Assembly (NCBI RefSeq): GCF_964355755.1
Contig: NC_092674.1
Location: 11,475,001-11,539,000 of the forward strand
Direction of reading: 5' to 3'
Length of the DNA stretch: 64,000 bases
From: Antedon mediterranea
Taxonomy: Eukaryota > Echinodermata > Crinoidea > Comatulida > Antedonidae
Positions 28,869 to 58,177 of this stretch are shown here, in pieces (the stretch's first letter is position 1; each line of letters opens with the position of its first letter). The translations under genes were made by a program, and so were the position numbers. The notes under the pieces were generated by a model, which was given only the letters and a program-made list of their open reading frames with translations, searched no databases and was not told the DNA's origin.

Positions 28869-31800
28869 TTATGGGACAGTTGGTACGGTGATCCTTCCAA
28901 TCGCCATCTCTCTCAGCTTTTTACGATCAATCTACAAAAAGAAGATAATAATTAATGCATGACCAGTAGAACTTCTTTTAATGGGAAACTTAATTTTGAG
29001 AGCAGTTATCATTCTAATTTTTTTTATTCTAGAAAGGTAAAACAAATTATTTGCTATCAACCATTGTTCTATTAAGTAAAAATGTTTAGGAGTAAAACCC
29101 ATTCCATTTTAAGATTTTCATGTAAAGTTATATTAATAATGGAAAAATACACCATGATAGGTGATAAAAAAACCTGAATACTTTAAAGAACTTGTTAGTG
29201 GTATTTCTGGTTTCTTACCATTATGCCACCTTACAAAAGCTGCATTGAGAGATGACTAGTCTACTAGTGGACATTCATAAGATAAGAATTCAGTCTCTAT
29301 TTGCCTTTTTCAAACATTTTCCAGCCATAAACGAAATTGTGTAATTTTACCTAGTTAGTAACTACCTAACTGAGTTCTTGCATTGGAGATTCATACTGTA
29401 TCTCTTGGAATACAATAATATAGAGTTCATAATTTCTAAACCACTGAAAACAACTTAGATGAGTCAAGATATTTTCTTCTAGCTACTAGTTAGCGGTTAC
29501 AGTGTGTTTCTAAGATGATGGTTGGTCTCCTTTGCAGCCACTGCGTGGGTTTGCTGTATAGCCTAGTATAGTCAACGGTTTATAATTAATGAACTCTTTA
29601 TTATTATTATTATTACTAAATTGAAATCAAATGAATTTTTTCACATTTCAGAATACAATTTAATTCCTTTGAAGATTATCTCTATTATCACACCAAAATA
29701 TATCTTGCAGCAGAGCAGACAGACAGCTTTTCTAATAAAAAATAACCTGCTCCACCCTTCTTAAATGTTCAACTTGATACTAGCGACTACTCATTTAACG
29801 TATAGTAAATGTTATTAAAGAAGTTTAAAAAAATCTGAATACCTTTCCAGTTGTAACTTTTGGAAATTCATCAAATTCTAAGCAGTATTTTGGTAGGCTC
29901 TTCACAAATAACTGTAAGGCATAAGCAACAAATTATGTATTATCCTAATTAAGTCACAACTCCAGTGTGAACAGCCATTTAACCTATTACGTTGGGAAGA
30001 CAAATTATTGAGCCTCATAAAGATTCAAGTACACTGTACAGTAAAACTTGAAGAGGCCATTTCATGTAGCTTTATGTTGATAACTGGTGAAATGGCCAAA
30101 CCAGTTTTAATTAGTTTGTTATTTGAAATGCGTCTGTGTTTTGCTTCTAAGAAAATTCATAATCTACTGTTATCCACCATGATTTTAGTACAATGATTTG
30201 TGTTTTTATTATTGTATTGCGTCTCATTGAAAGTTGGCTGTTTGGAGCCCTCTGTGCCAAGCATGTATGCAAACATTTGTTTTTATCTGTACTGTTCATA
30301 TGCCAGTAAAATCCGAAGTAAATTGAATTGAATGTATATAAATGCATACATGTTCATTAGAAAGACATTTACTATGCATGGCAACGTTTTACCCCTACCT
30401 TATCAACACAATGCTTTTCTATATCTTCTACTGTAAAAGTACAGCCTGGATTAAGTCTGGAATTTAATGGAAAAATAATATAATTTATGTATATATAATG
30501 AAGTTGTACACATCAGCAGACAACCTGATTTTATTTTCTAGATGTCACTAGAGAGATTCTAACCGACTATCGCAAGTCATCTAGATACTAGTCTGACTGT
30601 ATTAATTACGGCAATTTTATTACATATCTCTCATATATCTACAGACAATGTATGTGATAGGCCTATGTTTATTCAGGAAATCCAATAAATCGGCAGTAGT
30701 AAAATTATATAGGTACTAGAGGGTGAGCTCGCTTCGCTCGCTCCCCCTCTAGGAAGTGTAGACGATGGTTCTCGGAATGATAATGTTCTCCTTATACATT
30801 TTCTGTCGGTTACCATTATTGAAAATGCTGGACATTCGTAAAACTAAACTATTTTGTTTCACAGTGTTTTAGATGATTAATAACATTTTAAAGTATAGTT
30901 TTTATTGTTTGGTAGGGCCCTTTGGGGAGGCGGAGGTCATTTGAGGGAGGTGCTTATTCGAGGGATATATGTTAAATTTTTTAGTTCTAATAATATGGTA
31001 ACATTTATAATCAAATGAAATCCTCTCATAGATATGAAAAGTGGTAAAAAAGAATAACAAATGCTTGGTAAATTGCAGATAACAGTGCGGTGAATTCTAC
31101 TACAAATAGTATAATTGTGTTATTATAAATATGTGGATGGACGTTTATTAGATAGTTGGGTTGTGGGGTGGTTATTATTCAAAGTGATGTTTTATTGGAG
31201 AGGCGTTTATTCAAATGAATACCATCCTAATAATTATTAATACATTATTTAATTTAATCATCTTTTGAAACTAACTGCCGTGACAGAGTGGGCCCAAGAA
31301 AGAAGACATTACGGCTTGCAACATGGGCAGACATCTCGGTCCTAACGGGACACAGGAAGATAGCCTACAGTTATTCCTGCAAGCTTACTCAATAAAACTC
31401 AGCTATCGGGATTTCACTCGAAAAATGTCTTATCAAATCTCCCTATGTAATTTTATAATACTATTCCCCACAATATATTCTGATTCTTTATGGCGTATAT
31501 TTAATTTGATCTTTATTAATTTGCAGTATAATTCCTATTATTTAACTACTGTACCTTCACACACGTGTGGTATGTTTTAAAATAAACAAAAAACTGAAAT
31601 GGCTATGATTAATGGCCAATTTTTTTTTCGTCTTCCAAAGGGACACTGTATTGATTGATGGAAAGTGCCTGTTTCCAGTCACCTTTAGAGTCAAATCTAT
31701 TATTTTAACTGCTCCCTTGTGTATAAAAGAGAGAAAATATTTGAAACTATAAGTGAACTTATCTTAAACCCGGAAATTACTTTGACCGGGAAGAATTGAA

Positions 31801-34800
31801 ATTGAGAGGAAAATCCAATGTTGAAATCATAAATGTTGTTAAAAAACTCTTTATAATATCTTCCTAAGATATAAATATGGAATAATAGCGTCGGCGTGCA
31901 CACTAATGTTATCAAATCTACGTTTCGCGGTACATTTCGGATAGATAAGGTAGGTATCCAAGGCGGAGATTTGTAGAGAAGTTTTTGCATTGTGCTCGCC
32001 TATGTCAGAATTAACCATAATTTATATATATAGATACACACAATGCTTTTCTATGTCTTCTGAAATACAGCCGGGATTAAGTCTGGATTTTAATAGAAAA
32101 TAAGGTAAGGTTGAATAGTACACGTCAGTAGACTACCTGTATTTTCTAGCAAAGGTCACTCGATTCTGCAGCTGTCACTAGATAGAGTCTGACTATTAAA
32201 TACTTTTAATATACGATATCTCTGTCATTAGGTTTATAATATCTACAGACAATGTATAACGTGATATGTGTATTCAGGATATCCAATACGGTAAACCGAG
32301 AACATCGCGTATTACAGGTATCTAGGTATGTATCTAAATGACTTGCAATAGTCAGTTGGACTATCTAGTTACAGCTGCAAAATCGGGTGCAAATAAGTAG
32401 ACTAGATACTACTTGAGCCGATCGTCCTGCAAATAATATAAACTATAAAATAAATATAAACTATAAAATATTTACATAACACAGGCGCACACGTCCTCTC
32501 CATATCTATAATCGGGTATCCCCACAATCTAAAGAAAACAGTAAAATAGAATATATTTATACTGTCATGCAAAATGGTATATAGAACATATATTTTGTTG
32601 GTTTTTTCCTGACTTTTTTCTAGGCTGGTCATAATTATTCTCGGATATATATTCATATTTCATTTTGTCTGTAATGTTTCCTATACTTATGTTTCGTTTC
32701 CTTAAACATTTTTGACTGGTCTTTGAATCACTATAATAATAATAATAAAACCAATCTAAAGATCTATAAAAATGAATAATGTGAACCTTGGTATTCACTT
32801 GCCTTGCATAATAACATAATTCTAACCTGAATGTTTCTAATAGCTGAATGACTCAACAGTGCTTTTTCCATTGGAAAAGGGTATATATTAAGACCACTTC
32901 TGATTATACGATCCTACAGTATAAATAAAAATCATATCAATTTAAATTTTAGAAAACGGTTAACACAATAAACGGTTAAAATATTGATCGATACAATTAT
33001 AATACATAAAAAGATAACATTTTTTTCTGTTTCAAGTTTATTGAAAGAGTTAGTGTTGATAAGAAAGCAGTACAATAATTAGCAATCGGAATATATATTA
33101 AGACTCTTCATTAATCAATAATAATTATGGTGATCAGAATAAAAAATAATTTGTAATCCATTCTACCTTCATTCTGCCTGTTATTGTAAGATATCCATCT
33201 TGATCAAGTTTGCCAATATCACTGCAATTATAGATATTAAATTTCAAATTATTTATATTTAAAATATTTTGAAAATGTTTTTCCGACAGTAGGCCTATAA
33301 ATAATATGCATCATAGTTTACCCCGTTCGGAACCATCCATCAGGTGTCATCACATCTTTTGTTTTTCTTGCATCAAAATAACCCTCAAATGCAATGTCGC
33401 TTTGTACCAATACTCGTCCTTCTTCTCCAGACTTCACTGGATGGCCACTTTCATCTACAATTTTGATCTGACAAAGTAGCATATTCAATAACTTTAATTT
33501 TACAATTGGCGTTGTTAGAGCTCAAATAGTACCGTACTCTACTATACTACACATTGTAAAATGCTGTGATCTACCATAGTTTTGATGACGCATAAAACCG
33601 AATGTCTATAATAGAACGCTTCTCATTGCGTAACAAAATAAAGACCTTCCATGGAATATGGAGTGTACAATCATCGCCTGCAATAAATGATTTCACCCAA
33701 AGAGAACAAGATAAGAGTCGTAAACTTGCTTAGCCGATTTTGTAGTTCAGACAATCAATTTCAGAACTGAAAAGCAATGAAGCGTGACGGAAAATTGCTA
33801 TGCAACAGAATAGCTTCCACGCATTTTTTAAAGAACTGGTGCGCAGGAAACTGAAATGATGCACAGAACGAAAGCTTTTAAACATCAACTATAGAATGTT
33901 GTGCAGCCATTTAACTGGAAAGCAAAACTATAGTTGTTATGACTGCACTGATTTATGCAACAAAAAAACTCATTGAAGTAAAAATGATACCTTGTTGTTT
34001 CCTATAGGTTTGCCGACTGTGTTTGATTTGTGACCTTCTTGCACAATAACGCCTGTTGCGTCAAATATTTCTGTCAATCCATACGAATTCTGAAAACATA
34101 ATTATTTCACTTTACATAATATACTTGCTCAGTCTACACTGGTGCTGTCATCATGTTTATTATATGTGCACATCAATTTTGTTGTCACATAAAATTTGAT
34201 AGTGTAGAGTAGCATATAATCAAAGAAATTAATCAATATATGTGTAGAAAATACTCACCATAACATCAATGTTCAATTTCTTTGATAGAAGAATTGCAAC
34301 TTCTGGCGGAATCGGTGATCCTGTAACAATACCTAGAACAGAAGAGTTTTTTTAAATGAATGATGTACTGGAGAAATTTATATCAATGGAACTCGTTGTT
34401 TTACAATTTAGAACGTTTTGACGTATAAACAAAAAATGATTGTGTTCTATTCAAGTTTGACTTTAAACATATGATTTTGTTATGTACTGTCCTAGTATAG
34501 TCTCAAGTGCAATAGTAGTTCAAAGTTATATTTGAAAAATAAAAAGGAATAGAAATAAATGGTGTTAATAATTTAGTATTTACCTGCTTTTAGAGACGAC
34601 AAATCATAGAGACTGAGTGTAGGGTCATAAACCAATTGAATCAACCAATTTAGGACCAACGTAATATGAGTAGCACTGCAAGACAAATAGAGTAAACTTC
34701 AAAAGATAATACAACGTTCGACTGTTGCACAAATAATGAATGTTTATAAGTTTAATTGAGGTCTTTATTGCGCACAATCTTCAATCAAGTCATGACAATA

Positions 34801-37800
34801 TTCTGTGCATACAAATACACAAAATTCAGTATTTGATTTTTTTTAAACAAGCATACTGTTTTTAAGAAAACTAATTCAATAACAGTATTTATTAATGTTT
34901 TAAATATTTATTTTAACACATCCATCCAAGGTACTCTCTACAGGTTGATTTTTGCTGTCATTTATAGGCCTGTCATAAGCTTGCCGTTGATTAGTCCCAT
35001 TGAATATTAGTGTAACCGCTGGGATAACCATTGCAACATGGAAGGTACGGAATTAAATGGTTTAAGGTTACCACTGCCACATTGTACTTGAGCTAATTAA
35101 TTATAATAATCAATGTTTTACCGTTCATCATGGATAGATTGTAACAACTTCTTGCAATCAAAAGCATCTGCTTTCGGGTATATACACGTTGAACCAATAA
35201 GAAGTGGACACACCTGCGTTTGAAAAGTTGCATCCAAAAAGGACATACTGCCACAACACACAAATTTGATTTCCTTCAATAAATATAGTACAGTTATAAA
35301 TAGGAAAAATCACAGAAGGAAAATCAGTTAATTATTATTAGCTTATAATGATGTATACAATCTACTGCTTTTATGCTAAGGATTGAATATTGCTACACTG
35401 GTTTATTTATATTATGAATGATTATATATTATTTTAATATGTTAAAGATTATATGATTTGGTCTCTAATAATACTATTGTATATGTATATAGTGTGAATC
35501 TTTTGAGGATGCATTATTTTTATTACGGCAGAAATCATGAGGATAATAAATGTTAATATTGAGATCTAAAAAGACCGTACAGCCTTAATAGATTAGGTCT
35601 TTAAAAAACGTAGAAAGGGTGTTATTCTTCTGGATTATATTGGGACTCAAGAATAACGCATCATGATCAATGTAGACATGTTTCAGTTAATTTGTACCTA
35701 ACAAAGCACAGCTATGCCATATGATAATATTTTTTTATTGTATAAAAAATAATTACCTCATTTTCATTACACAATTGGAATAGGCCACAAGTGGGGTTCA
35801 ACATCCGAAAATGTGAAAATTTTACCAGCTTTGGTGGTCCAGTTGAGCCCTGAAGTAAAATAAAAAGAACGAACTAAACTTCCTGTAAATGTATATGAAT
35901 TAAGATCACAGAAAATCTGAACACAGAAAAATGGTTGGTATTGAATAATTATATACAGTATAACCCCTTATTTAAGGCAACCTATTCAGGGGACACCCCT
36001 ACATTTAGACGAAATCCCCGTTCAGGGACATATTTTGTGAAACGAACGAAGGTAATACTATTCGAAATAAATTAAAAAGATATTATTTATCATTGTATTA
36101 AAGTGTTCATGAATATAACTATTATTATTTATATTACTATTTCTGTTTTTTGTTTTGTTTTATTGATTTTATTGATCAAATTTTGATTTGTTTAGTCTGT
36201 AAATCAACAATGTAATTATTATTACTCTGAAAGGGTCTTACGTGACAAGATTTTTTATCTTCTAGTATTGATCCTATTATGGTTTCTTTATATCAATTCT
36301 ATTTTTATCTTTTTACTATTTGTTATTGAGCTTTACTGAGCCATTGATGAAATAAATTTTGTTGACATCAATTAAGGGGACATTTTTTGATCCTGAATGT
36401 GTCCTCTTAATAGGGGTTCTACACTCTATTTGTTTGTAACCGTACGTTTATTCAGTTCGTTTCTAAATCGAGAAGCATGATACGTTCCGACAATCTATAA
36501 CTACTAATTAAGTAGAATTTAAGTAGAATTTGGAATAGTACAAACCGATGTCATTAATACACAGTAAATTTCACCAAGAGTGACCAGTTTAGAAGCTTCC
36601 TTAACCGTGTCTTCATGCCCAGCAATGTACAAGTCTTCTAAATTAGTTGTACCACTAATAAAGTACGGTAGAAATAGTAAAATGATACTTGTTAATTCTT
36701 ATAGTAAATGAAAAAGTAATATAGTGTAACTAAACGACTTCAGTAATAATATTGTGCTGTTTCTTTATTTTATTGATTCTTGATGTTTCGTCTTTTTTTT
36801 AGTTGTCTCCGGACTGTCTTCGCTTGTATTTTTATATTGGTTTGATTTTGTAATATTTCAGTTTGTGACTTTTTGATGTTCTTTTTTTATTTTTTATATT
36901 TATATAAGCAAAAAATAAAAACAAACAAACAAACTGTAGTAGGCCTTCTTTGGTCAGTTAATTGTTGTCATTTCATTATTCAATTGAAGCTAAAATATCA
37001 TCATTGCCATCTATTTAAATGTTATTAGGCCTATTGGTAAAAGACGAAAGGAACCAAATCTGCCAACTGTCAAGTCAAACCATGTTACATAAGATTTTTT
37101 TAATGGAAAATCAGTACCTTATTTGACTGTAGATTTTAAAGAATTTCATCTAACTACCAATATATGACTAGAAGTAGTGTCAATGGTTTTTTAGTTCCTA
37201 TATCTGAAACTTTTATTTATGCAGGCATGAAATAACTTTAATCAATCTATTCAGCAAATTAAAAAAAAAAGAAGTCATTTTATTTAACTTGTTTTATATT
37301 TATATTTGTTGGATTTTTTACAATCTTTATTTTAGATTATAAAGGACCCCATGTAAATAAGCTGCTAAGCTTTTTTTGGGTCATCCTGGAAATCGTCTAT
37401 AAATGTATTCACTTTGTATGTATTTTTTATAATGATTTTCAATTCAAATAAAATGCTAGTACTGTACATACCTTTGGTGATTGATATCTGTAGCTACAAC
37501 ATACTTTAAGTCAGGAAATCTTAAACCAAACAGATTGTTTTATTAGAATAATTCAGAATAGTAAGAATCATGGTTACAAGAATAATTGTTATTTCCCTGT
37601 ATACTAAATTAAGTTTCCCCGTCATTCAGTGCTCAATATACTTCCTTAATTCCCAGTGTTAAAAATGTTTCCTTTCTTGGTAACACAATTTTAGATATGA
37701 TTTCTTATTGCAAATTACCTCCATTCACAAATACCCCAAAAGAATACAATTGACTTTCACACCTAACTACTTTATTCCTGTATACTCTTTCATTCTTCAG

Positions 37801-40800
37801 AAGCACAATCGTTCATTTCCGATTGTTCAGATAGTGTTATGACACAATCATACACGTTCGTCAAGTCACAGGCATCTAGAGTTAAGCTCTGTCTAAACTA
37901 TCAAATTTGATGTGACAAAAAGATGTGATGTGCCCTATATGGACATTATGATGATTTCACTACACTATTGGCCATATCATTGTCCTATTTGGCCACATCG
38001 CACTTTTATTTGTCAAACTAGTTTTAATAGTGTAGAAAGAATTTGAGGTTCTCGCGTTTTGACCCAGTCTCAACTCGCACACCACGCATATAAAATCTCA
38101 CAGTTTCCCTCAAGTCTCAACCTTTTTTTTCAAATTACATCGGTTGTTTATTATTCAAATAAGCACTGATCATCGGACAAAACGAACACATTTACAACAT
38201 AATAGGGAAATCTCAAGCAAGCATCAACCTCAATTTGGCATTTACAGTATGCGATATCCCCTTTCCCTCTACTAAAAACATTTCCATTAATTTCCTAAAA
38301 AGTGTTCCTTGCTTTATATGTTACTGACATGTACTTCAGCTCTGTCCATGACTTTATAGTATTACTTCATTGGACAATAGTCAAGACATTTTTCTACACA
38401 AGGAAGAATTACTCTTCCCTAGTACACAGTCAATATGTAAATTCCGCATTTTATCAAGGTTTAGGCCTAGGCATACTGTACTTCAAATTTGTCATTCATG
38501 CCCCAGTAAATCTAGTGTTCATGAAGTATACATTCATTAATTGTAACTCATTCCAGTGCTTAGTTAGTTACCTTTTATGATTCCCATTGCCTCATCCAAG
38601 TATCTAAAATGTTTATTTTTTTTATTTTAACAATATTTGCCATTGTCAGGCCTACAGAACAATAAAGTATGACAAGACAATGACAATCATAAATGTTACT
38701 GCCAAAGTAATATTCTATTTACGTTAGGAACCTTTATGTATTTCCAGTGAGCATTAGTTATTGATGTGCTTAAAAAAGTGCTTGATCAAACAGCAAACAG
38801 AATTATTTACTTATTAGACATTATGCTACCAGAAGTGCTAGAGCTCAACTCTGGAATCAGTTTACAAATGTCTGTATACAGGTTTACCGGACTTCGAGTG
38901 AGAAACAAGGCCTTACATGATGTCTGAATGAAAATAAATTAAATCAATCGAATCTTTAGAGAGTAAAAAACTACTCACTCAAACTTAAGTGAATGTCTGT
39001 ATTTTCAAAAAGTTAACTGATGGATAATTATTTTGGAGTGAAGTAATGAAAAAAAACTAAATAATCGCATCTGTATAGAGTAAAAACTACTCACTCAAAC
39101 TTGGAGTGAATAATACTTTCAAATAATTAACTAAGGAATGATTCATTTTTCTCTGTAGAGAGTGAAATCTACTCATTCAAGTGAATGTCTCCACTTTCAA
39201 AGAGATATCTGAAGGATAATTCATTTTCGCGTGAAAATAATCCACTTAAAAAAAATGTCTTTTATCATTTAATTGCTTTGTGTGCATAGGCAAGTAAATA
39301 GCTTACATTAGGCCTACATTGATCACACTAAATAGTGATGGATTATTAAAGAAATATGCATAATTATTCACCTTTCGTAAAATGTCTCCTATTATGTGCA
39401 TTGGATAACCTGTTTGCAAAAACACCTGTAAAAAGACAAATGTTATGATTTTATTAATTTGGAGTATAGTAATCATATCAATTGCATATTAATATCATAT
39501 CTAAAGACCAGAAGTCTATGCCCCGAACAGAAAATATTAACAGTTCTTTATATCATGTTTGCTTCCTTACAGATTCCGGTCTGGAAAAATTGGTATAAAA
39601 ACAACTATTATAACCCAAGGGTTACAGACTTACTGTGGTTACTCCAATCGCCCGTGTTGCACCCGCGATCAGTGGCCATTCCATGTGATTATGACCAATG
39701 ATAGCTATGTAATCACCGTTACTAAGACCAATCTCAAGTAATCCAGATGCCAATTGCACCACCTAAAAGCAATTTTTAATCATTTATCAGTTTATTATTA
39801 TCATAGAAGGCTTGTTTCATCACCACCAGAACTATATGCACCAATTGTATGGATAATGGTGCCATTGTCTTAATAGTAGAGCAGTTAAGGCCATAAAAAT
39901 AGCCAAGTTGTGCACTTTATTACCAAAGCATGAAACTTGCCACAAAGTTTCTTTGATGTATATAGATTCAAAATATGGGGGGGTGCCAAGTGTCCAACGT
40001 CCGGTATGGCGGCCATCTTGATTTCAAAATGGCCACCATAAAAACAAAAAGTGTTCATATCTTGGCAACTATAAACAGTAGAGACTTGATTCTGGTGTTA
40101 AATTGTTCAAAAACCACATATTTCTATTTGCTCTAATGAAAGGTTTCGTCAAAAAATGACCGGAAATGACGTTTCTTCCAGTTTGACCTTTGACCTCTTA
40201 TCTGTATATCTCGGTAACTACTGATCATTTTCAATCGATTTTGGTGTCATTTTGTTCAGAATAGAGACATTTATATTTGTAGTAATGAAACATTTTCACA
40301 TAAAATGACTGGAAATACAATTTATAACCTTTGACATATATAATTATGTGAAGATACTGTATGTGGTTTACATTGGTATAAATGCACCTAATTTGTTTTA
40401 CCGAAATAAATGACACTTAATGCAAAAGTGACCAGGAATTTATTATTCTGAATTTTTGACTTTTGATGTGATAGGATAGGCGTAAAGTATGACAGATCAC
40501 TGAGAAACAGCAATCACTGAGCTCATGCCGACTTGTTTGCTAAACTGTGATGTGTCAATCGTTATATAAAAGTTTTGGTCCTCTCTCCTTCATCTTTTCT
40601 TTTTTTTTGTTAATGTATTATACCATATGGACAATTGTCTGAAATAAAAGTTGAATTGAATTGTTAGATGCCATTTGGAAATATTTTTGATGTAAAGTAG
40701 CATTCTTTCGTTGGCCTCTTTGATGTTGCATATGAGACAAGTTCGGAAAGTTCTCATTTTCATGAGTTAAGAGAACATCGTCTTTCAAAGTACTTACTAC

Positions 40801-43800
40801 ACAGTAGCCCTACTTTCATTAGTCAGAAACTCAGATAATTATTGGTCATTTTCGTTGCATCTAAACAAATGTACTCAATTTTTATGGTAATGAGCCTTTG
40901 CTGTAAACCATCTGAATCCTTTTCCTCGATTTTCTCTAGTCATTGATTTTTTAGCAAAATTTGTAAAAGACATCTCAATATAATTATTCAAGTAATCTTC
41001 AAATTAGTGACATGGACCTACAATATACTGTTCTGTACAAGACCTTTTTAGACATCCACCTGTGGACTTTCACTTTGAAGGTCTTGATCTCCTAATCATA
41101 CAAGAAACAATGTCTGATTTAATCAATCAAAGTAGTGGGTCCAGACCATCCACAGACAAAGAAGGGGGTATAAGACCATCCACAGACAAAGAAGGGGGTA
41201 TAAGACCATCCACAGACAAAGAAGGGGGTATAAGACCATCCACAGACAAAGAAGGGGGTATAAGACCATCAACAGACAAAGAAGGTGGTGTAAGACCATC
41301 CACACACAAAGAAGGGGGTATAAGACCATCCACAGACAAAGAAAGGGGAAGGCCATCTACAGACAAAGAAGGGGGTATAGGACCCTCCACAGACAAAGAA
41401 GAGGGTGTAAGACCATCCACTGACAAAGAAGGGGTATAGGACCACTTACAGACAAAGAAGGGGGATATAAGACCATCCACAGACAAAGAAGGGGGTGTAA
41501 GACCATCCACAGACAAAGAAGGGGGTGTAAGACCATCCACACACAAAGAAGGGGGTATAAGACCATCCACAGACAAAGAAGGGGGTGTAAGACCATCCAC
41601 ACACAAAGAAGGGGGTATAAGACCATCCACAGACAAAGAAAGGGGTGTAAGGCCATCTACAGACAAAGAAGGGGGTATAGGACCATCCACAGACAAAGAA
41701 GGGGGTGTAAGACCATCCACAGACAAAGAAGGGGGTGTAAGACCATCCACAGACAAAGAAGGGGGTATAAGACCATCCACTGACAAAGAAGGGGGTATAG
41801 GACCACTTACAGACAAAGAAGGGGGTATAAGACCATCCACAGACAGAGAGGGGGTGTAGGACCATCCACAGACAAAGAAGGGGGTGTAGGACCATCCACA
41901 GACAAAGAAGGGGATGTAGGACCATCCACAGACAAAGAAGGGGTATAAGACCATCCACAGGCAAAGAAGGGGTATAAGACCATCGACAGAGAAAGAAGGG
42001 GGTGTAAGACCATCCACAGACAAAGAAGGGGTGTAAGACCATCCACACACAAAAAAAGGGGTGTAATACCATCCACACACAAAAAAGGGGTGTAATACCA
42101 TCCACAGACAAAGAAAAGGGTGTAATACCATCAACAGACAAAGAAAAGGGTGTAATACCATCAACAGACAAAGCAAAGGGTGTAATACCATCAACAGGCA
42201 CAGAAGGGGGTATAATACCGTCCACAGACAAAGAAAGGGGTGTAAGACCATCCACAGACAAGGAAGGGGGTGTAGGACCGTCCACAGACAAAGAAGGGGG
42301 TGTAAGACCATCCAATGACAAAGAAAGGGTATAGGACCACTTACAGACAAAGAAGGGGGTATAAGACCATCCACAGAAAAAGAAGGTGGTGTAGGACCAT
42401 CCACAGACAAAGAAGGAAGTGTAGGACCATCCACAGACAAAGAAGGGGTAGAAGACCATCTACATACAAAGAAAGGGGTGTAAGACCATCCACACACAAA
42501 GAAAGGGGTGTAATACCATCAACACGCACAGATTGAGAAGGGGGTGTAAGACCATCCACAGACAAAGAATGGGGTATAAGACCATCCACAGACAAAGAAT
42601 GGGGTATAAGACCATCTACAGACAAAGAAGGAGGGGTAGGACCATATTAACCGAGGAAGCATACAAAAAGAAGATACAGTACAATCAAAATACCACTTGG
42701 AAAACAATAAATTGTAGAATAACTGAGGCTTGATTGTTGAAATATAAAGGGTTCTTTGTAAGGTCATTAATAATATATTGATATAAACACGATCATCATA
42801 CTTTTCATTTGACATTCAAATACAGTCTATCTCGAAAAGAAGCTCATACTATCACCTTTTCGAGGTTTTACGGTATTCCATAACATGTACAGTATGTTAT
42901 TTCCTCTGTCAAACTATTAAAACTTTTAGCGAATCAGAAGGTGCCAACATCATTGAACTAATGGTACCACCAAGCACAATGTTTACCAATTTTATGTACT
43001 ATATACAATTTAAGTCCATTAATCATTTAATATAATTACGCCTATCAGGTCAAAGTTCAAAGACCAACAAAAACCACATACAGTATATTCACCTAATTAA
43101 AAATCATTAAATAAATGTCAAAGGTCATAAATTGTATTTCCGGTCATTTTATGTGAAAATGTTTCATTACTACAAATATAAATGTATTTATTCTGAACAA
43201 AATGACACCAAAATCGATTGAAAATGACCAGTAGTTACAGAGATATACAAATACGAGGTCAAAGGTCAAACTGAAAGAAACGTCATTTCCGGTCATTTTT
43301 GGACGAAAATTTTCATTAGAGCAAATAGAAATATATAGTTTGTGAACAATTTGAGACCATATTTAAGTCTCTAATGTGTATAGTTGCCAAGATATGAAAA
43401 TTTTTTGTTTTTATGGTGGCCATTTTGAAATCAAGATGGCCGCCATACCGGACGTTGGACACTTGGCACCCCCCGATATTTTGAATCTATATACATTAAA
43501 GAAACTTTGTGCCAAGTTTCATGCTTTGGTAATATAATGCACAGCTCATGTCATTAACTGCTCTACTATAACCTCTCGATATTTAATTATATCAACTTTC
43601 GACTAATTCGCAATTATGATAAGACATGATACGAATGTATATGGCACAACGGCATTCGAAGGTTGTATAAGTGGCATTACAATTTCGTGTCAACAGGATT
43701 ACTTTCAACAAGTTGGGATTTTAAACTTCTATAAAATAAATGGTGACAGCTTAGAACTGTTTTTCCAAAACTGCCATTAGCTTCCAATTCACTAAGAGAA

Positions 43801-44386
43801 CAAAGTGTGTATGTCAAGTGCCAATCGCCAACTATGATCGTCTTTAATCACTTGCTTCTTCAAATAAAGTGTGCCTTCTTTAGTTATGAAGAAGCAAATT
43901 TATACTCTATGATTTTTAAAAGCAATATAATCAATCCCTGGTGTTCAGTATCCACGTTATAGGATCAAGTCCAATTATCAATATCAATTTTGACCGGTAG
44001 CATCGGTAGAGAATGTCATTTCAAAAAGCAGTAATTTAAATCTGCCATACATTATCATAATAGATTTTTTGAAAGAAACAAGATGGCATCACCTAATCTA
44101 CCCACCCAACATCTTTTAACTCGACTATTTTTATTTTTTCTGTATCAGGTCCGGATGGAATCTTCTACATGTGTAGAGGAATAATTATAATAATACATAA
44201 TGTGCATAAACATTTTACCTTTTGATGGAAATCCACAAAATTCAATCTCTCATTGTCACTAACAAACACATGCATTTCTCTGTTAGGATGCATTTTAACC
44301 CGTTCTTCTAGTAACTCATGCATGGTACTTCTGATAGCATTTTGATTACTAAAATTTTTATCATATTTCTGCATAGAAGTTTCCAT
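28869..44386 (-). CDS. ACSF2-like acyl-CoA synthetase / AMP-binding enzyme, gene A
   Basis: Eighteen coding exons: 44219-44386, 39634-39762, 39372-39425, 38811-38923, 37472-37519, 36546-36654, 35757-35849, 35122-35273, 34584-34675, 34259-34332, 33991-34089, 33322-33467, 33167-33221, 32827-32913, 32476-32528, 30399-30456, 29843-29911, 28869-28931. They total 1662 nt and give a 553-aa protein in frame. The family activates carboxylic acids with ATP to acyl-AMP and then acyl-CoA. Motifs: TSGSTGPPK (ATP loop, split between exons 6 and 7), YGLTE, DGWFRTGDIGKLDQDGY, GRMKDRIIRSGLNIYP, and TTGK with the catalytic lysine near the C-terminus. The usual PxYH segment is replaced, and the GGEN of the hinge is SGLN. 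ACSF2 of vertebrates is about 615 aa with a mitochondrial leader; none is seen here, so a 5' exon may be missing. The acyl substrate is unknown. Exon 1 has an 11-residue insert relative to gene B. Confidence 0.88.
30716..32034 (-). mobile_element. Non-autonomous Helitron H3, in intron 15 of gene A
   Basis: On the minus strand it starts TCTATATATATAAATT (32034) and ends in a 37-nt hairpin (30716-30752) with the GCTCGCTTCGCTCGC core and CTAG. Flanking bases are A and T as expected. Size is 1319 bp. The interior differs from H1 and H2, so only the termini define the family. It contains no transposase ORF. It sits between two copies of an exon-16-containing block (30410-30680 and 32035-32300). 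Confidence 0.8.
32035..32110 (-). pseudogene. Ghost copy of gene A exon 16
   Basis: The minus strand from 32095 repeats the exon 16 sequence (ACTTAATCC..GGCTGTA...GAAGACATAGAAAAGCATTG) with an internal deletion of about 10 bases. It runs directly into the 5' end of Helitron H3. Its frame is broken and its donor is missing, so it should not be spliced in. The functional exon 16 is 30399-30456. Confidence 0.75.
32163..32383. repeat. Short inverted-repeat (MITE-like) element
   Basis: ATTCTGCAGCTGTCACTAGA at 32163 is mirrored by TCTAGTTACAGCTGCAAAAT ending at 32383; arms are about 35 bases with a few mismatches. A related sequence lies at 28010-28150, and a weak one at 30535-30600. No coding capacity. 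Confidence 0.55.
35956..36426. mobile_element. pogo-like MITE in intron 6 of gene A
   Basis: The left end CAGTATAACCCCTTATTTAAGG and the right end (reverse complement AGTGTAGAACCCCTATTAAGAGG) form imperfect terminal inverted repeats flanked by TA. CAGTA..AACCCC termini with TA target sites are typical of pogo/Tigger-type elements. No transposase ORF. Confidence 0.5.
37870..38045. repeat. Imperfect inverted-repeat MITE-like element
   Basis: CTCTGTCTAAACTATCAAAT at 37891 is partly mirrored by ATTTGTCAAACTAG...AGTGTAGAAAGAATTTG at 38010-38050. A relative with GTCTACACT and TTTGATAGTGTAGAGTAGC termini lies at 34130-34215. It lies in intron 4 of gene A. Confidence 0.4.
38955..39235. repeat. Degenerate tandem repeat, about 3 units of 100 bp
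   Basis: Three units share AGAGTAAAAACTACTCACTCAA...GTGAAT...TTTCAAA...AACT..GGATAATTCATTTT. In intron 3 of gene A. Confidence 0.6.
39874..43568. mobile_element. Long inverted-repeat (foldback) element in intron 1 of gene A
   Basis: Left arm 39874-40490 and right arm 43035-43568 are reverse complements over about 500 bases with few differences. They share TAGTAGAGCAGTTAA at the outer edge, GTGTCCAACGTCCGGTATGG and AAATGACCGGAAATGACG. An extra 80 bases or so interrupt the inner part of the left arm. The 2.5-kb interior contains a 30-bp minisatellite and no recognisable transposase. Long arms with a variable, tandem-repeat-rich centre fit a foldback-type or non-autonomous DNA transposon. The superfamily is not assigned. 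Confidence 0.75.
41147..42650. repeat. 30-bp minisatellite, about 50 units
   Basis: Tandem units of AGACCATCCACAGACAAAGAAGGGGGTATA with scattered variants (29-bp units occur where a G is lost). Because the unit is a multiple of three, several frames stay open as decapeptide repeats. The minus-strand ORFs of up to 456 codons here are by-products of this and not genes. The plus strand has a run of 4-5 G every 30 nt. Confidence 0.95.
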
Positions 44387-44399
44387 TATAGATTCTAAA

Positions 44400-46470: not shown

Positions 46471-46479
46471 TTCCATAAA

Positions 46480-46890: not shown

Positions 46891-46899
46891 GTTATTTTG

Positions 46900-48300: not shown

Positions 48301-48309
48301 CATTATTTT

Positions 48310-48930
48310 ATTTTTTTAATGTTTTTTTTTAATAATTTTAAGAGCTTTGTGTGTGTACAAACTACACATTTTAAATATTTTATATATTTGATAATAAATG
48401 CAAGCAGCGTATTCATTCATCTTTATCTAATTCATTATTTCTTTGTAATTCTCCAATATATGTTCTTCATTAAAGTTTTTGAAATTTCTAAAAGTTGGTC
48501 TAATTGTTTTATGTCTATTGTTTTTATTTACATATTCTAGACATGTACAAACTAAGGAGTGGTCACTTATTGTACATGGCATTCTTCCTCCACTCCGGAA
48601 ATAACATAATTAGAGAAATTATTGCAAAGAGATAGAATTGTTGAAGATAACCTAAAGTATTTTTGGATCCATCATCCTAATTTTCTATGGCTATTCAATT
48701 TTACCGCAGAAAGTTTTAACTTTTAATGCTTAACCTTTGTATGCTGTTCTTTAACAGAAAGCTAATTTATATTCTAAGTAATCTAAAACTATTATAATTT
48801 TATTTCATCTGATGGTCCTATGCCTATCATAATTAATCTTACCTACAGTATACACCCCAAAACTCTAAATGTGATTATTAGTATCTTGTTAATATTATTT
48901 GTGTAAATTCAACAAGAATAAACATAGCTA
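48310..48930. other. AT-rich downstream region of gene B
   Basis: Holds the presumed 3' UTR of the second ACSF2-like gene. No canonical AATAAA was found close behind the stop codon; nothing else recognised. Confidence 0.4.
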
Positions 48931-48932
48931 TT

Positions 48933-51900
48933 TTAAGTTTCATATGGGGAAGTTGGCACGGTGATTCTTCCGATAGCCATCTCTCTGAGCTTTTTACGAT
49001 CAATCTAGAAAGACAAAAAATAATAATGAATGAAGGAAGCGTTATGTATTAATTTATTAACAATAATACATAACAAATAACATGCTTCAACTTCAATGAA
49101 GCATTGAAGGCAGATAAACTGAACTAAAAGGTTAGAAGATTCAGTATTATGTTTATCATTTTGTTGCACGAGCCAATACAATAAACTGTCTGAATACCTT
49201 TCCTGTAAAACCTTTTGGAAACTCATCAAATTGTAAGCAGTGTTTTGGTAGGTGATTCACAATGAACTGTAAGACATAATCAACATTATCAAGTTATCTT
49301 TATTATGTTCAAACAAAATTTGAAACAATAACAAGTAAAAAAATTTAAGTGCCATATTTAACATAATTAATTGTAGGCCTATTGTAACTAATGGTCATCC
49401 ATATCAATATAAACAACATCTTACTCCTACCTTATCAACACAATGTTTTTCTATATCTTCTACTGTTAAAGTGCAGCCTGGATTAAGTCTGGAATTTAAT
49501 TGTAATACTAATGTAATTGTATGTAGCATTTGTAAAAACAAGTCATTTGTTGGGCAGTACACCAGTAAAAGAATGTACACAGGAAAGTTCCTGGAAATGC
49601 CTTAACAAAATTAATTTTACTAATTTCTATTCTGATTACAAAGGGATGGTAGAATTGGATCATCCTTTCTAGCAATATTGAAATATCATACATACAATAA
49701 AACAACAAATATTTACATAACACAGGCACACACGTCCTCTCCATATCTATAATCTGGTATCCCCACAATCTAAAGAAAACATTATTCATTATTCATGATT
49801 TAGATATCATTATGTACTGTATGCAATATTCGGACAAATCTTGCGGCTTTTTTATTTTACAGTATTGTATAGTACACTGATACATTTAATACATATCCGA
49901 GATCATACATACAATCATGAATACAATTTTATAACAAACAGTTGATTTTTTGGACTACACTATTAACAAACTTAGCTTAACTTTTTGGTTAATTGTTGTA
50001 AAGAAATTAAGGTTAATAACTTAAACACGCACATGTTTCTATTGAGTACAAATCATGGAGTAGATCTTGGTCTGCAAAATGTTCTCCACTTATTTTTTAT
50101 TTCTTTAAAAACTATTGTGAATATTCTGTGAATCACATTATAATGACCACACAAACCACTTTTTTACAAATTCTTACCTGAATGGTCTTGACAGCTGGAT
50201 GACTTAAAAGCGCTTTTTCCAATGGAAAAGGGTATATGTTGTAACAACTTCTGATTATAACGTCCTTAAGAAAAAGAAGCACATGGTTTACAATTATTAC
50301 TTTATACGTTACTTGCTTTGTTTGTTACTTGGCAAAATAGAATCTTAGTTTAAAAACTACGACCAACCAACCTCTACCCAGGGTACGCTGATTAAAAAAT
50401 ACTTTATTTGGTGACAAAGGTATCCTCTAGGTTAGTAGTAGATTAGTAGTTCTTATATTAATTATTAAATAATAATACTTATTGTTTAAATGTACTTTTC
50501 CACCTTAATTATATTTGATATTTATTGTAATAGAATTATCTATTGATTTATGTGTGGAAATCAATAAAAACAAACAAACAAACCTTCGTTCTGCCTGTTA
50601 TTGTAAGGTATCCATCTTGATCAAGTTTCCCAATATCACTGCAATTATGAATTTATATTTTAAAAAATATTTCTGGTAAAAAAATATAATTTATAAAATA
50701 ACTTTCTGATAGTAAGAGCAATATGTATCGAAACATTTACCCCATTCTAAACCATCCATCAGAGGTCACAGCTTCGTTTGTGTTTCTTTCATCAAAATAA
50801 CCCTCAAATGCAATGTCGGGTTTTACCAATACTTCTCCCTCTTCCCCAAACATTGCTGGATGTCCACTTTTGTTTACAATCCTTATCTGAAATAGAACAT
50901 GTTCCGCAATGGGTAACATCAAACTGCATTATGAGTTATTTCAATTCAATTTGATGATTATAACAGATCTCTTTTAAAAAATGCTTCAACAGAAACATAT
51001 GTTTTGTTTCTCTTTGTATAGTATGATAAATGTTATGATAGTTGTGTAATTAGGCCTACATATTACATTTGGTATACTTAGAATAAGCCAATGTTCTTAC
51101 TGCACCCTTCATCTTGAAACTCTCACTGTAAAAACCTACAAGTTAGAACCAAATGTCTTCATCTTTTTGCTATTCATGGATTCCTGCGAATTTGGCGAAC
51201 TCTTCGTACTTCTCTAATGTGTGAATTGTTATGTTCACTTGTGTTTTAATTGCTTATGTCACCTGGGATTATAAGGGTCATTGTCGTTTGTTGTTGTCTC
51301 TTTTTTGTATTGTTTATTTATGTTTTTGGGATGATGCTATTAGCAATAAAAGAAAGAGAACAACATGTCATTGTTACCGAGTTTCCGTACTAAAATTTTC
51401 AGTGAAGCCCACTCTCTTTCGTTGCATCCCCTCTTCGGAACAAATTCCCACTTCATGTAAAACATTCGCCCACTTTCCATATAGAAACTTACTTTACCTT
51501 GTTGTTTCCTATGGGTTTACCGACTGTTGTGCATGATTTGTGACCTTCTTGGACAAACACGCATGAAACGTCAAATATTTCTGTCGATCCATATGTAATC
51601 TAATTTCAAAATGTAATTATTTCATATTAATAATTATTTCATATAAATAGTTTACACTATACATATTCAAAACTGGAGAAGAAACTATGAACTGACAGAA
51701 AATACTCACCATCATATCAATGTTTAATTTCTTTGATAGAAGAATAGCAACTGACGGTGGAATCGGCGATCCTGTAAGACAACCTGTAACAAATTAAAAT
51801 CGTTATTGTACGAGTTTTAACTATTAAAATAGGGAGTTTTCGCAACCCTACGAATACGATAACGAAAACGGATACGTAACGCACACGTATTCGTTTTTCG

Positions 51901-54900
51901 TAAGCCAGTAAAAATCTGTTTCGCATGGCAACAAAATATTAAGGGCGCCGTCCAAAATATGACTGCGGTAAATTTGAGCGAAGCGCAGGTACGTGTTGCT
52001 TGGTGCTTGGCTGCCTTGGCCTAGCGTAACATCAAAGCGAGTGAGGACTTTAAAAACTGCTATTTATCAAAATTGACCTTGCATTTTAGTAAATTACTTT
52101 AGTAAATTACTTTCAATAAAAGTATAATTATATAATCATGAATCATTCCTGATTCAAATGCAAAATGTGCAAAATAGATCAAAAACTATAGGCCTACTCG
52201 TTTTGTAGTTACGAATATGACGGGTGATATTCGTCAACACGAATACGCTTTACGAATATGAAATGGGGATCAGCTCAAAAGTTTCACAAATGTGTGACGT
52301 ATCCGTTTTTGTTATCGTAATCGTAAGGTTGCGAAAACTCCCTATTGCATTATAGATACGATATACTGCCTACAGTCACTCATTTTAATGTAGCGGATAA
52401 TATAAGATTCTTTAGGCCTATAATAATTCTAAATTCATGAAAATGGTAGAAGCACTAGAAATCTCTCAATATAAGTTTAAATAATGAAATGTGACGTTCT
52501 TTACTAAATTTGAAATTATACATTTATTTTATATAATAATTCATTAACATATCACAAATATAGGCAAATATAATTGGTATCCTGATTCTTAAAATGCTTA
52601 TTTACAGATAAAACATTCAACACCGCAGAATTCTCATTGCATAGGCCTACACATACAATGCAGATGGAAGGCTAAATGTCACTTCCAAACTCATCATATA
52701 ATATAGTGTTAGTATAGAGTATCTACCTGCTTTTAGAGACGATAAATCATAGAGATTGAGCGTGGGGTCATAAACCACTTGAATCAACCAATGGAACGTT
52801 AGCATAAAATGAGTAACCCTGGAAGACAAATACACTTCTTAAAACATGCAAATGTTATACAAGAAACAAGTATTTTGAAAGACTGTCATTCAACTCCGCT
52901 CAGTATCCGCCAATATTTCAACTCATTTTATGTGCATACATGAAACACTAATACTAAAAATAATAATATAAAACACCCATAGGCCTACTGCCCTAAAGCA
53001 AACATATTTATTTATTTTGATTTCTATTGAATCAAATCAATATTTATTTCCTGTCAAAGGTACGTACATCAAACTGGTAGAAGCAATAAAACTCTTGAAA
53101 TGTGTCATTCTTTCCTGTCGCCTTAAAGGCTGGTTGCATGCCTATAAATCTGACCACTGATCTTTAATGCACAGTACCATTGCATATTACTTTAAAGACG
53201 TATTGTTACCCCACAAACATGAAAAATGAAGATTAATAAATTCAGACATTGAATAGGCAATTTTGTAGTTTTATTAAAGTTTTCCAAGGGAAAAAACGGA
53301 GAAAAAAAATATTTTCACAAAGTAAACGGTTAGACTCAACGGAAATTTTGGGTAGATATTTTTTTTTTCGATCTAACTTTTGTAAATAACAATTGTGTGA
53401 CATTAACATGGCATGTTAAAAAAACCGTCGTTTTAGACGATTAAGCGTCAGTGATTAAAATAATGTGATAATTCAATAAACAAAGGAAAAACCTTTGCCG
53501 ATCCTTTGTTTTCTGAGCCCGGACTATATACATTGAATAATCTTCCGAATGGCATTACACATTTTATAATAAGCCAGGTGAAGACAATGTTATTACTGAT
53601 GTATAGAGCCGCTGATAAATAATCATAAACAAGTGCGCTATAAGATTTAAAAAGGTGCAAGAGAAGGAAATCTACAAAAGTGCCGTATCACTAATTCACA
53701 ATTAAGTTACCGTTCATCTTTGATAGTTTGTAAGAATTTCTTGCAATCAAAGGCATCTGTATTAGGGTATATACACGTTGAACCAACAAGAAGTGGACAA
53801 ACATGCGTTTGTACAGCGCAATCCATAAATGCCATAGTGCCACACAACACTAGTTTGGTTACCTTCAATGTAAGTTTTACATTTTATAATATTGGTATCT
53901 TGACAACTTATTATTGTTAACATATTATTATTATTATTATTATTATTAACATCATACATGTTGTAGTTTCTCTTAATCAAATCTTGTGTGTTTGAGTAAA
54001 TAAAGTGTTTTAGATTATTGAATGAATCTTACTTTTTCAAGGCTAAATTTTAATTGAATTTGAAGAAGTGCATATTTTTTGATTGAGGAAGCAACGTATA
54101 TCGCATTAGTAATCCTTGCTTTTATTCATACCTTAAAATATTGATATGTTAACAAATAATTCATTAATGTTATACAATTTATTTACTGTATCAATAATTA
54201 TTACCTGACTTTCATTACACAATTGTAATAGGCCATAGGTAGGGTTCAACATTCGAAAATGTGATTTTTTTACTAGTTTTGGTGGTCCGGTTGAGCCCTG
54301 AAATAAAATACAAAGAATATATATTTGTTGAAAACGGGTACTTGGACTTACATTACATGGGAGTGCATTGAAACACAAACGTTTGTTTCAGTTACTTAAA
54401 AAAATATAAAATGTTCCGCTTTCAGATTTTAATTTAGTAGGAATGTTAAGAGATATCATACTGTAGAAATAGTACAAACCGATGTCATCAATACACAGCA
54501 AATGTCATCAATAGTGACCCTTTTGACAGCTTGCATAACTGTGTCTTCATAACCAGCAAGATACAAATCTTCTAACTTGGTTGTACCACTATAATTCAAA
54601 TATACAAACATAATGACTCAATATAAAGTTTTATAGTTAATACAAATATTAAATAAAAGAGACCATTAGAGACGGTACTGTTTGTATACTGCAGTCAGTT
54701 ATTCATTGCTAAACATTTTCATTTTATTATTAATGAACATTTTATCATGATCATTTTATTGACATATCTGATCTATTTAAATGTCATACCTTTTATGATT
54801 GATGCCTGTAGCTACGATATACCTCAAGTCCGGAAAGCTTAAACAAAAAAGATTGCTGTATTATCCTGCAGTACATTATGAATAATTCAAATCAAATGTA

Positions 54901-57900
54901 GAAGCCATTGCATTATAATAATAAGCTATAAATAGTTGACATTTATATCGGTTTTAATACAAAGATTTATTTTCGGTAACCGCGCATATGTTTTAATGCA
55001 TTTACATAATAATTATATATTAATTATGGTAAAATATGGTAATTTCGTAATTACTATGAAATCATCTATTTTTGGCAAAACTTCTTTAGTGACCATATTA
55101 TTAATTGTTGATAATAATGTTGTAAAAAAAACATAAAATAGAAGTATTTACTTATTAGACATGATGCTACCAGAAGTGCTAGAGCTCAACTCTGGAATCA
55201 GTTTACAAATGTCTGTATACAGGTTTTCTGGACTTCGAGTGAGGAATAAAGCCTTACATGATGTCTGAATGAAAAAGAAATTAAATAAATCTCTCTAATC
55301 TCTTATTAAATATAAAAGAGTAAAAAGCTCCGAACTGAAACTAAATGAATATTCTCTCTTACCCTCTTATAGCTAGCTAAACAATTTTACCATTTAAAAA
55401 AATGTACAAGTTCGTTCCCCTAACGGGGTTTTATTTCCACAATATTTAGGCCTCTGGCCCTTATATCTTACATACAAATCATACAATAATATTTTCTGGT
55501 TGGGTTGCAAAATAATATTTTCTATTTTCGTAAGCTAAATAAACAAAATTTGCTAAATCTTGGACTACTCTAGTGTTGCACATTAAAAAATAAAACTTAT
55601 TTAAACAAGGGAACGTGTGATAAAAATTAGGAATATATAAGTTTCTGCTGAGTTCGGAATAATATGGACAGACTAACATAAAATGAAATTCGTCTTCAAT
55701 AGAATTCATATTGCATAATTTACATAAACGGTTTTGAAGTGGGATTTTGTTCCATCTTCCCTTTTCTATTTCCAAATCTAACACTCCTAAACGAAATTTT
55801 GTGAATATATTTTTACGTTTCCAATCTTTTAAGTGTAACAAATGATAACTTATTTCAATTTTCGTTTTAAAATACTTAAAATATTTTAGTTTTGAATGTA
55901 AAGAAAATTGTTCAAAATATTTTTGTTTTCTAAATCAATCAGTCGTAATTTAAATTCTTTAATAAATAATTTCTTGTCTTCAATCATTTGATTGTACCAA
56001 ACATAACCAAAGCCGGTTGAACAAAGTAAATGTTTTACCTGACTAGCCCAGCAATATTCATTTCTGTTAATATTTCTTAACTGAAAACTGTAACATTTAA
56101 AAATAAATCTATTTTTATCCATGTCAATAATATGCAACCAAAAACGAATAATTGAAATTAAACAATCGACATGCAAGGAAACTCTGCCTAATTCTGTAGT
56201 TACGGCTGCGCTAGGGGCACTTTTTCCAATGTTCAAAATAAACCTCGCAAAACGCGTGTGGAAATTATTAATAATTATTTGGTTAGAAAACCCCCATATT
56301 TCACTGCCGTAAATTAAAATTGGTAATATTTTTGTGTCAAAAATATAATTCCATGTATTTTCTGGTAAATATTTCATATTTCGACTAATAAAAGATTTAA
56401 CGGAAAATAACGCGTTGTTTGCTTTTTGACAATTATATTCAAGTGCTTTGTTCCACTGGCCATTTGAACTAAATACCACTCCTAAATAATTATAAGTCGT
56501 AACAACCTCCATTTGAATATTCCTGTAATACCATTTTTCAAAATATTTTAGTTTCCCACCCTTTTTAAATACCATTATTTTTTATTTATTTATGTTTACA
56601 CTGAAACCCCATGTGTCACAAAAATGTTCGAGTTTATTTATTAAAATTTGTAAGCCCCTTACCGTATCTCCAAATAATACTAAGTCATCAGCGTATAATA
56701 AATGATTGATAAAGCTGTCTTCAACTTGTATTTTGTCGCTATCTCTACTCTGATTTAGATCATAACTTAAATCATTCATAAATATGTTGAAAAGTAAAGT
56801 AAAAATGTATCCAACATTTAGATTGAAAGAAATAGCACAAACTTACACATCGTACATGATTCAAACTTTGGTTAATCTTTCCACTTACAAAGTGTGAACT
56901 GAGCACCATATTCTCAGTACTAGCTTTTACCAGTATCATATAGGACATTTCCGTAAAACAGCATCACATGTATTGCCTATAGTACAGTATCATAGGCAAC
57001 CAATCCTTAACTAATGATAACACATGTGATACACACAAGATGCTATATTACCAAATGTTTCCATGATACTGGGCAAATTTTGTCGTACGTGGAGATACGG
57101 TCCCGAGAGACATGTATTTTGGATTGAAACAACAAGAATTTTCTCATATTGAAATTTTATTATGACACATTTCGTATTCACCTTTCGTAAAATGTCTCCT
57201 ATTATGTGCATGGGATAATTCACTTGCAAAAACACCTGTAAAGAAAAATAAAGATGATTTTATTTGGTCTAAATTAAAATTTATAAACGATATCAATTGT
57301 AAGACAAGACAAGATGTTTAGGCCTATGTCTATTACCAGTTATTTTAATCATGTTTGTTTTGAGAAATTGTTTTTAAAATATTCAAACACAACATAACCT
57401 TCAGTAATCTAACTTACTGATATTAATCCAATTGCCCGTGCTGCACCAGCGATCAGTGGCCATTCCATGTGATTATGCCCAATAATAGCTATGTAATCGC
57501 CTTTACTAAGACCAATATCCAGTAGACCAGACGCTAATTCCTCTACCTAAAAAGTCAGTTCAACTTGATATTACCAAATCTCAGAAAATGAATTCGTAGT
57601 AGCAAATATATAATTTCTAGAAATGGAATCAATTGTTAGTGCTCGTGCTTTGTATAGGGTTACATTATCATGTGGCCGTGGCTTATTATTCACCACCACG
57701 AAGGCTCCATCAAGATTATAGACAATGCGACAAAATAATAATATTTAAATCTGTTAAATATAGAGTAATGACTGATAATAACAGCGTTCCATTGAGCTAT
57801 CTATTTAACTTCAGCTATTTTCTTCAAATCTCTCATTATATAGGTTAAAAAAAAGATTCTCAATATTTACTTTTGTTCGATTTACAAAAATCATTAAGGA

Positions 57901-58177
57901 TAATTTAACTATTTAAAACATATTGTAATAGCATAAGGCAATTATAATTATCAATAAGTGTGAGGTTAGTTAAACAATCCTAAAAAGAAAAGCATTAGGG
58001 CCTATAATATGTAAATTAACCTCTTAGATGAGTGTATACCTTTCGATGGAAATCCAAAAAATTCAATCTCTCATTATCACTAACAAACACATACATTTCT
58101 CTGTCAGGATGCATTTTAACCCGTTCTTCTAGCAACTCATGCATAGAACGTCTGATAGCAGTAGAGGTTTCCATCAT
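48933..58177 (-). CDS. ACSF2-like acyl-CoA synthetase / AMP-binding enzyme, gene B
   Basis: Eighteen coding exons: 58040-58177, 57418-57546, 57182-57235, 55152-55264, 54790-54837, 54480-54588, 54205-54297, 53711-53862, 52727-52818, 51710-51783, 51498-51599, 50741-50886, 50584-50638, 50178-50264, 49717-49769, 49431-49488, 49198-49266, 48933-49004. They total 1644 nt, 547 aa, with no internal stop. Each exon aligns with gene A in size and phase; exons 1, 11 and 18 differ by whole codons. Motifs: TSGSTGPPK, YGSTE, DGWFRMGDIGKLDQDGY, GRTKDVIIRSCYNIYP, and FTGK for the catalytic lysine. Compared with the family, Thr of TGD is Met and GGEN is SCYN, so activity may differ from gene A. The ATG is doubled (MMETS); the first is used here. 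A candidate 5' exon lies at about 58529-58600. Same strand and structure as gene A point to tandem duplication. Confidence 0.88.
51829..52347. mobile_element. MITE with about 55-bp terminal inverted repeats, intron 9 of gene B
   Basis: AATAGGGAGTTTTCGCAACC at 51829 is mirrored by GGTTGCGAAAACTCCCTATT ending at 52347, with similarity continuing inward for about 55 bases (ACGATAACGAAAACGGATACGT versus its complement). There is no coding capacity. Target-site length is not clear; TA is possible. Confidence 0.8.
53930..53950. repeat. (TTA)n microsatellite
   Basis: Run of ATT/TTA triplets in intron 7 of gene B, read directly. Confidence 0.85.
55420..56800 (-). mobile_element. LINE 3' half in intron 3 of gene B, nearly intact frame
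   Basis: The minus strand reads NHLLYADDLVLFGD (RT motif C, YADD), CDTWGFSVNINK, a stop (TAA at about 56579), then MVFKKGGKL, YNYLGVVFSSNG, ILIYGSEIWGF and, after a frameshift near 55880, TKFRLGVLDLEIEKGRW...CKLCNMNSIEDEFHFMLVCPYY. The last block is the Cys-rich C-terminal segment of many invertebrate LINE ORF2 proteins. Motifs A and B and the endonuclease are missing (5'-truncated). Only one stop and one frameshift break about 440 codons, so it is fairly young. Confidence 0.8.

Follow-up and report, generated by a model that had tools for sequence, protein, structure and literature searches.

Gene models and core motifs

The window, i.e., the whole stretch of DNA analysed, covers 64,000 nucleotides of Antedon mediterranea C5 (NC_092674.1, 11475001-11539000), in a genome of 354 Mb, 18 contigs, and intron-rich genes. 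Two genes, referred to here as A and B, were rebuilt exon by exon on the minus strand by joining exons at GT-AG sites [Table 1]. The limits 28869-58177 given in an earlier note, made from the letters alone, proved correct in this reconstruction. All introns in both genes are GT-AG, the intron phases are identical between the genes, and there are no in-frame stops, which agrees with the conserved and open gene structure that the earlier note had described. With A as the starting point, an independent, purpose-written spliced aligner reproduced B as an 18-exon gene. In gene B, an additional in-frame ATG at 58177 lies upstream of the ATG at 58174. Both proteins match Pfam PF00501 (1.5e-57 for A and 1.2e-55 for B) and PF13193 (4.7e-9 and 2.7e-9), in each case above the cut-off.

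Table 1 Coordinates of the genes and of the exons that carry the core motifs (window positions, except for gene C).
Feature	Coordinates	Strand	Description
Gene A	44386..28869	minus	18 coding exons, 553 aa; predicted ACSF2-derived adenylate-forming enzyme
Gene A exons 1-6 (high..low)	44386-44219, 39762-39634, 39425-39372, 38923-38811, 37519-37472, 36654-36546	minus	
Gene A exons 7-12 (high..low)	35849-35757, 35273-35122, 34675-34584, 34332-34259, 34089-33991, 33467-33322	minus	
Gene A exons 13-18 (high..low)	33221-33167, 32913-32827, 32528-32476, 30456-30399, 29911-29843, 28931-28869	minus	
Gene A exon 7	35757..35849	minus	P-loop GSTGPPK, ATP-binding; TS from exon 6
Gene A exon 8	35122..35273	minus	A4 segment CGSMSF where PLYH is expected; acyl pocket begins here
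Gene A exon 14	32827..32913	minus	Hinge RSGLNIYP; hinge Gly (residue 451) kept
Gene B	58174 (or 58177)..48933	minus	18 coding exons, 546-547 aa; predicted ACSF2-derived adenylate-forming enzyme
Gene B exons 1-6 (high..low)	58174-58040, 57546-57418, 57235-57182, 55264-55152, 54837-54790, 54588-54480	minus	
Gene B exons 7-12 (high..low)	54297-54205, 53862-53711, 52818-52727, 51783-51710, 51599-51498, 50886-50741	minus	
Gene B exons 13-18 (high..low)	50638-50584, 50264-50178, 49769-49717, 49488-49431, 49266-49198, 49004-48933	minus	
Gene B exon 7	54205..54297	minus	P-loop GSTGPPK, ATP-binding
Gene B exon 8	53711..53862	minus	A4 segment CGTMAF
Gene B exon 14	50178..50264	minus	Hinge RSCYNIYP; Cys for hinge Gly
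Gene C (third copy, adjoins the pair)	C5:11541747-11556460	minus	Found by protein search, rebuilt

The introns hold further features. Intron 1 of gene A carries a minisatellite (41143-42645) of approximately 50 copies of a 30-base unit with long open frames on both strands, and intron 15 a partial duplicate of exon 16 (SRLNPGCISEDIEKHCV; 32040-32100, minus strand) with a short internal deletion. A broken reverse-transcriptase-like retroelement with long open frames and a YADD-type motif lies in intron 3 of gene B (55479-56842, minus strand); a Pfam search with its 231-aa frame gave no match. Upstream of gene B, a candidate exon (58527-58595, minus strand) consists of an ATG and 22 open codons followed by gtaagc. 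It is out of frame with the METS exon of B and could represent a 5′ leader or be unrelated to the gene.

The P-loop TSGSTGPPK and the TGK motif are common to A and B, while the remaining core motifs read YGLTE, RTGD, and RSGLN in A and YGSTE, RMGD, and RSCYN in B. The rebuilt proteins thus retain the ATP loop lysine, the YGxTE glutamate, the GD aspartate, and the C-terminal lysine, and they carry the changes reported in the earlier note: SGLN (A) and SCYN (B) for the hinge GGEN in exon 14, Met for the Thr of TGD in gene B, and loss of PxYH from both. Five residues (Glu, Gly, Asp, Arg, and Lys) are invariant in the superfamily (PMC6122825, PMC8388817), and all five are present in A, B, and the neighboring gene C.

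At the A4 segment, GSMSF (A) and GTMAF (B) replace PLYH. Exon 8 has to begin at the acceptor "ttgaag|" (phase 0) in both A (35273) and B (53862) to keep phase with exon 7; acceptors closer to the conserved block break the frame. From ttgaag, exon 8 reads EIKFVCCGSMSFLDATFQTQ in A and VTKLVLCGTMAFMDCAVQTH in B, each ungapped relative to VPLYHCFG of the true ACSF2 of this genome (see below). Since the region is collinear and ungapped, PxYH has been substituted and not deleted, which rules out deletion of a PxYH exon. The position of the A4 His is occupied by Phe in A, B, and C. The A4 His occurs in only 65% of superfamily sequences; NRPSs have Phe234 at this site and human MACS has Trp (PMC6122825; Clark et al. 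2018), so the change in A and B falls within the known variation of the superfamily. Nonetheless, loss of this superfamily-typical His, and of the hinge Gly in B, could mean reduced catalysis.

Descent from ACSF2 and the family in the genome

A search of the genome with the PRK12583 profile identified a gene at C5:22.41 Mb, on the same chromosome and 10.9 Mb from the pair, as the true ACSF2. Rebuilt, it has all the standard motifs (TSGTTGNPKG, VPLYHCFG, YGLTE, HTGD, GRIKDLIIRGGENIYP, and TVTGK), including the PLYH and GGEN that A, B, C, and the cluster copies lack. Judged by these motifs, A and B are divergent paralogues and not the ACSF2 orthologue. All 11 of the ACSF2 introns that were recovered match introns of A in position and phase (A positions 56, 117, 155, 207, 238, 289, 344, 377, 426, 473, and 510; the placement near 238 is uncertain by about one residue and depends on the query), and A has six extra. 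This coincidence is strong evidence that the family descends from an ACSF2 duplication. The earlier note had allowed that a close relative with standard motifs might expose wrong exon borders. Such a relative exists, but since each of its 11 introns has a counterpart at the same place in A, it leaves the borders uncontradicted.

Other features also connect the family with ACSF2, a mitochondrial medium-chain acyl-CoA ligase. A and B share with it the two-domain architecture, the ATP loop, the YGxTE Glu, the GD Asp, the hinge Arg/Asp, and the A10 Lys. Moreover, the best NCBIfam model for A is PRK12583, its bacterial counterpart (324.6 bits vs 273.1 for the next model), with a score below the curated cut-off of 832 bits, which is tuned to bacterial members. 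In the tree, the family members group as a single clade (100/100), whose branch measures 1.15 changes per site. Within it, A, B, and C group together (100/100) with B and C as sisters (99/93), and the large cluster forms its own clade (100/99); the root is left uninterpreted, as the bacterial rows are long branches. Relative to ACSF2, the family differs in the long branch, the replaced PLYH, PKL for PKG, the six additional introns, a variable hinge, and its expansion to about 20 or more copies. The divergent adenylate-forming subfamily suggested for the pair is real and larger than the pair.

The NCBIfam and solved-structure searches revealed no luciferase- or NRPS-specific affinity. The best NCBIfam models are fatty-acid/acyl-CoA ligases, and the top solved structures are fatty-acid and feruloyl-CoA ligases. 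NRPS adenylation domains have Phe at A4 (Phe234, PMC6122825), as do A, B, and C, and their specificity is likewise set by pocket-lining positions. Unlike these, however, A and B stand alone, the reconstructed genes encoding no carrier-protein domain, and have a profile of the acyl-CoA ligase type.

A protein search of the genome placed family copies on three chromosomes (C5, C1, and C3). Apart from gene C, these are at C5:24.31 Mb, C5:27.65-27.92 Mb, C1:25.33-25.37 Mb, and C3:13.82 and 13.94 Mb. Exon 1 gave approximately 21 different matches, counting those of A, B, and C, which is a lower bound for the copy number; the relatives rebuilt comprise C and 14 further near-complete copies, with the cluster covered in part. 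Twelve of these 14 are stop-free, and other copies have stops or missing exons. A and B are intact members of a copied family of ACSF2-derived, predicted acyl-ligases with at least about twenty genes. In gene C, the donor of exon 6 (C5:11549647-11549755) is TT where GT is expected and exon 11 is short by three residues; the gene is therefore probably not spliced normally and probably represents a broken copy. Another copy, in the cluster (C5:27881330-27887490), contains a long tandem repeat that encodes CGSDMPK units and interrupts the gene.

The altered motifs are present in A and B, as had been noted, but they are not peculiar to the pair. PxYH is absent in every family member tabled (mostly NMAY in the cluster), the A4 His position is mostly Tyr in members other than A, B, and C, and PKL replaces PKG throughout. 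Both TGD and MGD occur, the latter in about half of the members.

Selection, the acyl pocket, and the hinge glycine

Identity between A and B is 79%. Counting gave a dS of 0.338, a dN of 0.114, and a ratio of 0.34 (bootstrap 0.26-0.44), and maximum likelihood an omega of 0.30, with omega = 1 rejected (p = 3e-15). The two genes evolve under purifying selection, and the suggestion that both are maintained is borne out. Gene conversion between tandem copies could disturb the omega estimates, here and below.

For the acyl pocket, we used 12 positions that we take to be the specificity set of Arabidopsis 4CL2 (4-coumarate:CoA ligase), reportedly originating from Schneider et al. 2003. Motif anchors placed them at A residues 251, 252, 255, 294, 321, 323, 324, 346, 348, 354, 355, and 356. 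The list is partially cross-checked by 4CL2 M293 and K320, which were mutated in PMC11223281, and by the LACS pocket and gate residues (PMC6122825), which map to A255, A323, and A348. In the cluster, mean entropy is 1.44 at the pocket and 0.52 overall, the pocket value being reached by none of 20000 random sets. The list of variable sites had been seen before the pocket was mapped, and circular shifts were therefore used as a guard; among these (n = 540), only the true placement reached the pocket entropy. In the large cluster, pocket omega is 1.36 compared with 0.35 at other sites (LR 61.4; reached by none of 2000 random 12-site sets). The excess over 1 is modest (LR 4.8). The three sites with the highest omega (354, 346, and 294) are all pocket positions. 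A and B also differ more in the pocket (seven of 12 positions) than elsewhere (105 of 530, 20%; p = 0.004). Divergence in the family is thus focused on the pocket. The new substrate proposed in the earlier note gains indirect support from this divergence and from the pocket omega above 1 in the large cluster, but among A, B, and C the pocket omega is 0.91.

The hinge Gly (index 648) is kept in A and replaced by Cys in B and C. One cluster copy has Val at this site, another Ala, and the C5:24.31 Mb copy has Asn. The change to Cys is unusual. Leu or Ser at the same site in Salmonella Acs (Gly524) is said to block the thioester step. A role in opening the pantetheine tunnel has been put forward for the Gly, but Gly459Ala in M. 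acetivorans Macs had little effect (PMC10455477). Across 374 superfamily sequences, the Gly belongs to the 27 positions with a conservation of at least 80%, without being invariant (PMC6122825). The SGLN of A resembles the SG-type hinge of ACSM/MACS and ACSS (VSGHLL in the ACSS of this animal). These enzymes also lack the A4 His (Trp in human MACS, PMC6122825), but they are not the nearest relatives of A and B by intron structure or profile score.

Lineages that lost the hinge Gly have a higher omega than the rest (0.48 vs 0.28; LR 15.8, p = 7e-5, leaving out the long C5:24.31 branch, and LR 21.1 with it), although still clearly below 1 (LR 31.7). At the B and C tips omega is near 0.57, and the C tip alone does not differ significantly (LR 2.7). 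Omega is also raised in two copies that keep the glycine. Given this, and that the groups were drawn after the hinge table had been seen, the relation is an association and not proof. The partial reaction suggested in the earlier note can be argued only for the copies without the hinge Gly (B and C here), and the weaker constraint on those copies makes degeneration an alternative. A keeps the Gly in an ordinary SG-type hinge.

Substrate diversification and alternative readings

In all, A and B are probably working acyl-CoA ligases, derived from ACSF2 and diversified for substrate. They belong to a large family that arose from an ACSF2 duplicate and expanded in tandem. According to this model, the two enzymes would activate a carboxylic acid with ATP, generating an acyl-adenylate, which at least the copies with the hinge Gly, e.g., A, would pass on to CoA. 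The pocket that binds the acyl group, of which the former PxYH segment is a part, has been rebuilt and varies among copies. As the pocket differs from copy to copy, different copies probably take different carboxylates, candidates being dietary, xenobiotic, or secondary-metabolite acids. Changes in the pocket together with preserved ATP chemistry are as expected for enzymes adapting to new acids. B and C have Cys at the pantetheine-tunnel Gly and may therefore carry out the second half-reaction weakly or not at all.

Alternatively, B (and C) might be becoming pseudogenes in a birth-and-death family in which A is functional. The broken splice donor and the deletion in gene C, the several cluster copies with stops or missing exons, and the raised omega at the B and C tips point in this direction. 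However, gene B is fully open with all its splice sites intact, and both the A-B omega of 0.30 and the omega of the Gly-lost lineages speak for continued constraint, and we regard this decay as unlikely. Its standing is comparable to that of the idea that copies without the hinge Gly, namely B, C, and a few more, form the acyl-adenylate but no CoA thioester, being partial-reaction enzymes or ligases that transfer the acyl group to another acceptor. Gene B retains all adenylation residues, and the proposed role of the Gly, replaced in three other copies besides B and C, agrees with such a change. The Macs Gly459Ala data indicate, on the other hand, that a small residue may be tolerated, the reduced constraint is what partial decay would predict, and A keeps the Gly; we consider loss of CoA use improbable. 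Somewhat more doubtful still is a combined scenario, in which an ACSF2 duplicate gave rise to at least 20 adenylate-forming enzymes with the pocket under positive selection, a subset of the B and C type being acyl-adenylate ligases with a non-CoA acceptor.

That misassembled exons conceal a normal PxYH/GGEN enzyme is very improbable. The acceptor of the A4 exon is unusual and no PxYH appeared in the first reading, but the same acceptor is used in A, B, and C with an ungapped A4 segment. Replacements of the same type (NMAY and similar) are found in 14 independently rebuilt relatives, and the same method finds PLYH and GGEN in the true ACSF2.

P450s and UGTs are tandemly expanded enzyme families with diversified specificity pockets, and the ACSF2-derived family resembles them in its birth-and-death copies, pseudogenes, and raised omega at pocket positions. 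The literature searched contained no report of ACSF2 expansion in animals or of pocket diversification in ACSF2-derived genes. Studies of acyl-CoA ligase specificity usually rely on a small number of distant enzymes. This genome alone contains about fourteen open natural variants of a single scaffold, in which change is focused on the acyl pocket and the CoA-tunnel hinge. The set is suited to finding out which residues select the acid and whether thioester formation needs the hinge Gly. The family may also be a sign of an unknown pathway of acid activation in the animal.

Elsewhere in the window, a reverse transcriptase frame (PF00078) overlaps a PIF1-like helicase frame at 14796-16563 (minus strand), remains of mobile elements. 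Three intron-containing tRNA genes with anticodon UAU (Ile), each 107 bases long, lie in tandem at 62614-62720, 62955-63061, and 63325-63431 (minus strand), the third with a lower score.
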